Assembly (NCBI RefSeq): GCF_019059575.1
Contig: NW_024881613.1
Coordinates: forward strand, 372,001 to 436,000
Reading direction: 5' to 3'
DNA length: 64,000 nt
Source: Amphibalanus amphitrite
Lineage: Eukaryota > Arthropoda > Thecostraca > Balanomorpha > Balanidae
In this document: positions 28,801-48,287 of the stretch, piece by piece
Layout of the letters: each line of letters opens with the position of its first letter
How positions within the stretch are numbered: the first letter of the stretch is position 1
Made by a program: the position numbers and the translations under genes
Notes under the pieces: model-generated
Told to the model about the DNA's origin: nothing
Database searches by the model: none
The model's input: only the letters and a program-made list of their open reading frames with translations

Positions 28801-31800
28801 AGGCACCTTTTCATCGTATAGTTTTACGAGAACTTCCTCAGCACACGGCTCTTTTCACTGGCTGCGGCGACGTCGGCAGTTTCGCCGGCGGCACATGACG
28901 AAGTTGGCGGCCGCCGCTGCTCCCCCTGACCCCCCACCTTCCGCAGCTTTCCGAGAGCAGGGCACCTCGGACTACGTCAACATTGGCACGCACCGCCGTC
29001 GATCGGGCCGATCTCGGGCCGGCCGTGTTTAGTCGCCCGTGCCGGGACTGTTTGTGTTTCTGGACGTCTCGTGTCGGCCGTCGTGACGGGACATTAGCGG
29101 GCCCGGCCCTGAGCTGGCGGACCCCGCCGTCAGTGGCCGCTCTTGGAGCAGCTCTTAGTGGAGTGGAAGTGGGCGCGACGAAAAACTGTCCTTCGGCGTC
29201 TGTCGGCAGCCTTTGTCAGATGGCCCTGGCCGCGTGTCGCCACCTGCCATTGTTGTTCATGGAAATAGGGACCGTTCTGAAAGTAGGTACTCCCAACTGC
29301 ATTCCTATAGGGATTTGTTTTGTTTTCGTGAGTGAATCGAGTCCATTGTTCCTAGGAGATGTTTGACTTGGTTCTTGCCAGTTCATTGTCGGCGCTCATT
29401 TGTGCATACAAATCAGCGAGTTGTTGGAAGTGATGTTATTAGTAGTCGTTTCCACCTAACGCTCGTTCATTCTTATTGAGAGGAGGAGATATGTTTGTGG
29501 TTTGGTGCCACGATTTTTAGCAACGTTTATACGCTTCATGTTTTGTTTTAGTTCATGATTACCTACATTTGACAATCATAATGATCCCGTGATATTCTGG
29601 TATTAATATCCAACGCAAAGATCACAGGCGTCTGAAAGCGCCAGCCGATTGAATGATAACTACCACAATCCGCCGTGTCCGGCGTTACACCCGACCTGAC
29701 CTGAACTCTCTCTCTCTCTCTCTCCCAGCTCCCGGCCTCGCGACCATAGTCTGCGGCCCGCTGTGTCCGGCGTTACACCCGACCTAACCTGACCTGACCT
29801 GACCTGACCTCTCTCTTCCCAGCTCCAGGCCCAGCGACAGCACGGAGTTAATGATTTCATTTGACAATCATAATGATCCCGTGATATTCTGGTATTAACC
29901 CGCGCACCGACGGGGGTCTGCGCCAACTTCGCACCGACGGGGGGGGGGGGGGCGGATGACCGCCCCCCCCCCTGAGATCTCGAGAACGAAGCAAGATAGC
30001 GACAAGCGGCGAACGGCATCGGATACGCACGGTCAAGATCTACAATTTTTGCTAAGGTCATTTTCAGGTCAGGTCAAAGATGACGTCACAGGGGTCGAAA
30101 AACTCAAAATGGCGGCGCTAGATGTGGAGAGAGTTTTTCTCGAATAACTTTCGAATTAGTCAAGATAGGAACAAACTAAGGGCATCATCGTAATCCTCTC
30201 GTCAATCCGCATAGAATGATATATATGTTGACCTCGAAAGGTCAAGGTCAAAGGTTGACCTCAGGTCACGTGACCTCGAGGTCATCATGTATATCATTCG
30301 ATGCGTCTTGACAAGCTGAACACAATGGGACCATTCACGCATCTGTATCTTGTTCCTGTACGGAGTTATTGGCCAAAAACCTTTGGTGACCTTTGATGAC
30401 GTCACATGACCTCACAGCTGCCCAACAGCAAAACAGACCTCAAGGTAGTGAAGGTTGATCGTATATGAAGTCATGTATGGTATATGGGGCCATTCCGACC
30501 CGTTTTAGTGGTAAAAACAGGGAGTTGATTTTTCCCCCATTGACTTATAATGGGGAAGTCGCGAAATTGACCTGACCTTAGGTCACCGGTATCAAAATTC
30601 TGAGATATAAAAATTGTAGCTACTAATGACCTAATAACATCCTGCGACTTTCAAAGGCCTCCGACATCTACTGTAGCTCTGGCACGGTGACAAAGTTGCA
30701 AAAAAGTGACTTGAGGTTGGGTCATTCAAAGTGACCTGGTGACCTGACCTTGAAAGGTAGCAGGTTCAAACTTGCACACCATGTGTAAAATTGATGAGGA
30801 AATAGTCATACCAAATTTCGCGGCGCTACGCGCCACGGGTTTCCCGCTATTCGCGAAAAACCTCAGGGGGGGGGGGCGGATATCCGCCCCCCCCCCCGTC
30901 GGTGCGCGGGTTAACACCCATAGCAAAGATCACAAGTGTCTGAAAGCGCCAGCCGATGGCCTGATTGATTGATACCACAATCCGCAGTGCCCGTCGTCCC
31001 GACCTGACCTGACCTATCCCTCCCCCCATCTCCCGTCCTCGCGACATCGTATAGTCTGCGGCCCGCTGTGTCCGCGTTACACCTGACGACCTGACCTGAC
31101 CTGACCTGACCTCTCTCTCCCCAACTCCCGTCCGAGCGACATCGTATAACCTGCGGCCCGCTTTGTCCGGCGTTACACCCGACCTGACCTGACCTGACCT
31201 CTCTCTCCCCCAGCTCCCGTCCGAGCGACACCACGGTGTGCGGCCCGCTGTGTCCGGCGCTACGCCCGACGTGACCTGACCTGACCTCTCTCCCCAGCTC
31301 CCGTCCGAGCGACACCACGGTGTGCGGCCCGCTGTGCCCGTCGTTCCGACTGGCGTCCCGGTCGGCGCGGTACGACGTCCGGCTGTACCCGCGCACACTG
31401 TGGGTCAGCTACGTCACCGTCACCGAAAACCGCCTGCTGGCCGAAATGGAGGCCCGTGCCGGTCTTACAGAGTTCCTCGGCGGCAGGAACAGCCACGGTG
31501 AGCGGGGCCGAGCAGGGCGCGGAGGGACATCGACGCGACGGCCAGTCTCGGGGAGGGGAGGGACACGCGTGGTGGAGACATGTGCTTGGAGCTGGTAGCG
31601 GGGCACTTTTCGGGAAAGGTTTATAGAAATGAAGCATTTTTACCTCCTCAGTGTACCTATTTCTTACGAATGGCGAATAGTCCTTGTAGCATATAAACCA
31701 GTATAACGCCTTTTGGGGCGACTAACGGAGCGAGCGAGAGGGTGAGCCTTGCACGTGCGGAATTTCGAGGGGGTACCTCCAACTGACTTGTGCACGGCAC

Positions 31801-48287: not shown

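Follow-up and report, generated by a model that had tools for sequence, protein, structure and literature searches.

Why should the splice junctions of one gene recur as local tandem copies in its own introns, and does their recurrence call for a process that acts on exon edges? The question is raised by a tandem-SOUL gene in the window analysed here, that is, the whole stretch of 64,000 nucleotides of Amphibalanus amphitrite DNA. The structures in this gene are real, known in kind and present beyond it; as a whole, the original prediction is partly confirmed as an observation and partly supported in its interpretation. The explanation that we consider probable is that they are minisatellites of the type called mirages in lancelets: small tandem duplications whose unit happens to cover an exon edge, mostly a silent by-product and no splicing device.

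The gene model rests on the spliced frame, a Pfam SOUL match and the intron positions of a paralog.

31298..48287, + strand: tandem-SOUL gene, exons 2 to 8
31298-31497, 38153-38295, 45821-45993 and 46254-46399, + strand: exons 2 to 5
46764-46925, 47297-47457 and 48039-48287, + strand: exons 6 to 8

All six introns between these exons (6655, 7525, 260, 364, 371 and 581 bp, in order) have GT-AG borders and compatible phases, the single stop is the terminal one, and two stretches of the 410-residue product match Pfam SOUL (E=4.7e-32). The edges called authentic below would be the ones used in RNA, to judge from frame, homology and the paralog. Exon 1 was not found in the 64-kb window. The strongest coding-like stretch outside the gene in a codon-bias scan (7259-7822, + strand) has a start and a hydrophobic N-terminus; it gave no match in a Pfam search and may belong to the SOUL gene as its exon 1, or to a different gene. 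Lancelets are lower in GC than the window, which has about 50% GC; the GC3 of the SOUL gene is 0.88. Intron 3 contains, at 41124-42558 on the + strand, coding sequence of an ENaC-type (amiloride-sensitive) channel (41596-42558, E=4.2e-10), and an open frame at 41124-41672 overlaps the channel frame in another frame, around a 20-A run at 41607-41626. Satellite-like arrays occupy both window ends (1-428 and 63401-64000, with units of 143 and 135 bp according to Tandem Repeats Finder), and GACCTGACC occurs 27 times in the window against 0.3 in shuffles.

The nearest paralog, L035, has the same six intron positions, with introns of 197-504 bp, and is 43-75% identical to the SOUL gene per stretch. 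No junction-spanning copy was found at its 13 edges, from which it follows that the copies in the window are younger than the introns. The paralog has a 10/30-bp intronic array directly before its exon-6 acceptor. Its partner contig, L036, is 87-92% identical over the main alignments, and such paired contigs are presumably haplotypes; a second copy of the window SOUL gene was not found in the assembly. In the SOUL gene of L012 and L013, a 42-bp exact copy of the likely acceptor edge lies 93 bp upstream on both contigs. In L004 (G000:C1174), at least 60 bp from the end of a SOUL exon match recur 542 bp further downstream.

Each of the 13 edges of the window gene was compared with 200 dinucleotide shuffles, which set a floor of p=0.005. 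This floor was reached at five edges, namely acceptors 2, 4, 6 and 8 and donor 5. Weaker values were obtained for donors 3 (p=0.015), 6 (p=0.020), 7 (p=0.030) and 2 (p=0.060), the query for donor 6 being blind to a neighbouring copy 31 bp away that scores 20.5 separately. No local copy stood out against the shuffles at acceptor 3 (p=0.716), donor 4 (0.990), acceptor 5 (0.871) or acceptor 7 (1.000). The arrays concerned are as follows.

29566..29857, + strand: older copies of the exon-2 edge, at 29729 and 29823, inside a tandemly duplicated 292-bp unit
31017..31340, + strand: exon-2 acceptor mirage (Tandem Repeats Finder 31089-31340, 84-bp unit, 2.9 copies)
38320..38518, + strand: AGGTCA-rich array with a period of 21 bp, starting 25 bp past the exon-3 donor on the intron side
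45224..45808, + strand: 21-bp array upstream of the exon-4 acceptor (Tandem Repeats Finder 45238-45808, 21-bp unit, 27.2 copies)
46400..46509, + strand: exon-5 donor copies (weaker), with GT intact after 46445 and lost at about 46506
46669..46805, + strand: exon-6 acceptor mirage, 67-bp unit (Tandem Repeats Finder 46680-46805, 1.9 copies, 96%)
46907..46970, + strand: exon-6 donor mirage, 31-bp unit (Tandem Repeats Finder, 2.1 copies)
47842..48071, + strand: exon-8 acceptor mirage, 78-bp unit (Tandem Repeats Finder 47920-48071, 1.9 copies, 90%)

Tandem copies that span the junction itself are thus present at acceptors 2 (84 bp), 6 (67 bp) and 8 (78 bp) and at donor 6 (31 bp). Both 5' and 3' boundaries are affected, exon 6 having a copied acceptor as well as a copied donor. 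The original prediction had listed acceptors 2, 4, 6 and 8 and donors 5 and 6: acceptors 2, 6 and 8 are borne out, which makes three of the seven instead of four, and exon 4 is not, its array being intronic, while the 31-bp unit at donor 6 spans the edge and the copies at donor 5 are present but weaker. The several unit lengths that it had given were rebuilt at their places by Tandem Repeats Finder and self-comparison, and its view that this is not one minisatellite holds, since the tandem duplications involve several unrelated units. The array at 38320-38518, the copies at 29729 and 29823 and a third exon-8 copy at 47872 were absent from it.

Upstream of the authentic exon-2 edge at 31298, copies follow at 31214 (CAG), 31125 (CAA) and 31030 (CAT), in units of about 84-95 bp that run from (CTGAC)n through pyrimidines and CAG into about 43 bp of exon; the (CTGAC)n part resembles a branch point. 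Over the exon portion, identity is 98% for the nearest copy and 57-76% for the remaining ones. Further upstream, the second of the 292-bp units is interrupted by an element at about 29899-30912 that has TTAA on both sides. This element has inverted ends, G-rich and C-rich. The exon-8 edge occurs three times, as the authentic edge at 48039, as a copy at 47961 (CAC) and as an older copy at 47872 (CAG), with 1/34 mismatches in the intron half and 7/36 in the exon half (Fisher P=0.056). At exon 6, an intact acceptor copy at 46697 precedes the authentic edge at 46764, and the two differences between units within the matched stretch would, in our reading, fall on third codon positions; the authentic donor after 46925 is followed by an intact copy after 46956.

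Between the exon-5 donor copies, 14 nt at 46453-46466 exactly repeat the acceptor edge of exon 6, a length attained in none of 5000 shuffles. A unit that once spanned a very short intron together with its two edges could account for this alternation in intron 5, yet the resolved introns all measure at least 197 bp. The exon-4 array has about 27 units with CTGAC, most of which also have CCCCAG, and stops 12 bp short of the acceptor at 45821. Because the matching stretch is wholly intronic, the 12-bp gap intervenes and the paralog acceptor lies at the matching codon, this array does not count as a demonstrated copy of the junction. Likewise, the 38320-38518 array does not span a boundary and is not proven to be a copy of the exon-3 edge.

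Splice signals have been lost in part of the spare copies. The AG is kept at 31214, 29823, 29729, 46697 and 47872 (all CAG) and lost at 31125, 31030 and 47961, so the decay that had been claimed before exon 2 (CAA at 31125, CAT at 31030) and exon 8 (CAC at 47961) is found, as is the loss of GT after exon 5, where the third donor copy has CT instead. Eight spare copies in which the AG or GT is intact were tested by reading the gene through them, and all eight give a premature stop, so that most intact copies would do harm if they were used. The one tested spare site in frame to the end is 47961, where the AG is lost. The claim that nearly all intact copies lead to stops or frameshifts is correct for these eight, but the last four CCCCAG sites of the exon-4 array are in frame and stop-free.

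Are edges copied more often than the interior of introns? Within the SOUL gene, for which P values flatter the pattern because the gene was picked for it, six of the eight arrays lie at most 30 bp from an edge, against a mean of 1.38 in 20,000 trials with positions randomised within their own introns (P<0.0001), and four of the eight are in strict edge contact (P=0.004). In this randomisation intron 1 was taken to begin at 24000, since exon 1 was not found. The comparisons of edges with interior points, whose P values are all rough because adjacent interior points are not independent, agree within this gene: a score of at least 15 is reached by 6 of 13 edges and 9.9% of 759 interior points (P=0.0009). 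If the interior points in edge-attached arrays are removed, P falls to about 0.0001 or less at scores of 13-17.

Controls were taken from outside the window. Besides SOUL, only the ENaC-type channel passed the Pfam curated cut-off among the chosen frames of the window, ten in one set and, in another, five together with two spliced SOUL products; this leaves no second spliced gene there to serve as control, and an Rfam scan of the 64-kb window gave no match. The A. amphitrite assembly (807,550,619 bp, 2644 contigs) was searched, and eight CCT chaperonin genes provided a small sample in which 29 of 42 adjacent exon pairs, or 58 edges, were resolved. Junction-spanning mirages occur at three of the 58 edges, with acceptors at 3/29 and donors at 0/29.

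L074: acceptor mirage, best match 102 bp upstream
L076: acceptor mirage, best match 47 bp upstream
L078: acceptor mirage, best match 144 bp upstream (units of 71-73 bp)

The L078 mirage has four copies on C1029 and three on its partner C1931, which are presumed haplotypes. The L076 mirage has two copies both there and in its partner L053, with a small indel. The ends of 45 loci (15 SOUL and 30 CCT, haplotype duplicates included) gave three matches on the 5' side and three on the 3' side at scores of at least 20, with a background of 14 in 360 displaced windows. The 3' matches in L014 and L015 were rejected as edge copies; they show a 12-bp offset and were taken as a (GA)n run.

At a score of at least 15 no edge excess was found in the CCT genes (3/58 edges, 29/462 interior points), nor after addition of the paralog, either with the edge-attached points kept (3/70 edges, P=0.82) or with these points removed (3/70 versus 22/446, P=0.69; P=0.21 at 20 or more). 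Outside the SOUL gene, P values for all edges at scores of 13-20 range from 0.39 to 0.82 with points kept and from 0.21 to 0.69 with points removed, none of them significant. At 25 or more, the CCT genes and the paralog together give 3/70 edges against 7/462 points if these are kept (P=0.13) and against 3/446 if they are removed (P=0.035). Of the seven CCT interior points among 462 at this threshold, four lie in the L078 array, which starts at an acceptor. Pooled with the SOUL gene, 9/83 edges reach 15 or more, against 104/1221 points kept (P=0.29) or 50/1147 after removal (P=0.015; 0.001-0.05 across thresholds). Removing the edge-attached points leans towards edges and keeping them leans against, and the truth lies in between. 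The pooled set has 83 and not 84 edges, a score of 19 at paralog donor 2 having been dropped beforehand as a (GA)n run.

The strongest alternative to a by-product is edge-targeted duplication, in which the 3' splice-site region, with its CTGAC repeats, its pyrimidine tract and a CAG that adjoins GC-rich exon, would be a hot spot for slippage or repair, and acceptors above all would gain copies faster than introns do. It draws on the excess of arrays and matches at edges within the SOUL gene, on the CCT mirages at 3/29 acceptors against 0/29 donors, and on the non-SOUL acceptors at scores of at least 25 (3/36 against 7/462, P=0.029, or against 3/446, P=0.007). Yet a GC-matched background reduces the within-gene excess to P values of 0.002-0.04 (0.002-0.006 at 15 or more, up to 0.04 at other thresholds), the excess at 13-20 is not significant outside the SOUL gene, the threshold of 25 and the split by acceptor were picked post hoc, and the paralog has no junction-spanning copies. 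Separate events scoring at least 20 in the 29 CCT introns, three at edges and two inside, are too few to tell. On balance we find edge targeting rather doubtful. An acceptor bias is possibly real, and its weight is raised once the edge-attached interior points are excluded. In a more specific form, acceptor edges may be duplication hot spots by virtue of the CTGAC/pyrimidine/CAG block and the first exon bases, at about one acceptor in ten, a suggestion that we make tentatively. It is conceivable, if again on the unlikely side, that such duplication is recurrent and still varies between haplotypes, with repeated rounds lengthening introns from the exon edges. For the edge-acting process of the original prediction, the small-scale scan outside the SOUL gene gives no excess at 15 or more and, at 25 or more, an excess whose P value (0.035-0.13) varies with the counting of edge-attached arrays.

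A function of the copies, with spare sites as decoys or with arrays pairing to fold long introns, is very unlikely. The arrays at the two ends of intron 3 (38320-38518 and 45224-45808) are partly reverse-complementary (15/21, P=0.001), their duplex is predicted at -250.5 kcal/mol against -206.0 (sd 6.0) in 100 dinucleotide shuffles, and the pairing is limited to intron 3 among the introns tested, the five others giving z values of -1.5 to 0.5. However, TGACCT and AGGTCA occur 6-7 times more often in the window than in shuffles (106 and 81, versus 14.7 and 13.9), and among 66 array pairs others pair strongly too, with z values of -6.9 between the halves of the exon-4 array and -5.1 between that array and one near 22987. 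The complementary ends of intron 3 were dropped as a special pairing, since specificity is lost in this comparison. Decoys are opposed by the decay of spare signals and the stops that intact ones create; selection for decoy sites, which had been put forward as a cause, is likewise not supported, as some copies have lost their AG or GT while others retain it.

That the gene shows the Rogers model in progress, with introns gained when AGGT-bearing segments are duplicated in tandem, is more improbable still. The units do bear splice signals, and in the potato RdRp gene an intron was gained by tandem duplication across an intron-exon boundary (PMC4974935, as far as this source was available). The duplicated segment there similarly crosses the boundary and carries splice signals, but in the barnacle gene no new intron results and the spare copies lie inside an existing one. 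For the SOUL introns the model is contradicted, because all six are present at the same positions in the paralog, which has no junction-spanning copies, and are older than the copies. An assembly artefact from unmerged overlaps or false duplications, the refutation that the original prediction had named for itself, is scarcely credible even though, for several genes, the two haplotypes appear to have been assembled into different contigs. The copies show graded divergence, with substitutions and indels between them, they occur in other genes, and the mirages of L012, L076 and L078 are found again at the matching edges of presumed sister contigs.

The mirage explanation, by which the copies are a by-product of small tandem duplication, builds on what is observed in the DNA: the copies, their order and divergence, their presence in unrelated genes, the copy-number difference and introns older than the copies. 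The duplications measure about 30-100 bp here, and small tandem duplications arise in intron interiors of the same genome as well. The copies would originate by slippage or by duplication during repair, with unequal exchange as a later step. At an acceptor the 3'-most, exon-proximal copy would stay in use, and at a donor the 5'-most. The spliced mRNA would then be unchanged, while the spare copies would become decaying parts of an intron that lengthens. Copies of an edge could be tolerated because the first donor and the last acceptor restore the mRNA, and their retention would be neutral. Against this explanation stands that neutrality alone does not predict the edge excess in the SOUL gene or the excess at 25 or more outside it. 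Mirages offer naturally occurring sets of almost identical splice sites that compete at distances of tens of bp. The exon-proximal site appears to win, which opens to direct test both the choice between splice sites and the growth of introns through duplicated edges.

Comparable structures are known from other animals. In human duplicated genes, variable internal tandem repeats occur at exon-intron boundaries (PMC2812944); in the part of that report available to us they can be a source of novel introns and of alternative splicing, whereas here the coding sequence is intact and the introns predate the copies. The closest counterparts are the lancelet mirage minisatellites, described at exon-intron edges of Adh3 and the globins BflGb6 and BflGb9 (PMC3087553) and also of PGBD5 and troponin C (PMC3902484). 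Within a partial coverage of the literature, and from portions of these two papers, the name mirage for such a structure was found in the lancelet work only. There, too, the repeat unit spans the edge, 5' or 3' edges are involved, and only some copies keep the AG or GT. For the lancelet genes, the mRNA and regular splicing are described as undisturbed in the portions of both papers that were consulted. The barnacle differs in that several edges of one gene and CCT genes are affected, and in that its mirages are known from DNA alone. The presence of mirages in CCT housekeeping genes, outside lancelets, suggests that small tandem duplication gives rise to them quite generally, as a by-product.
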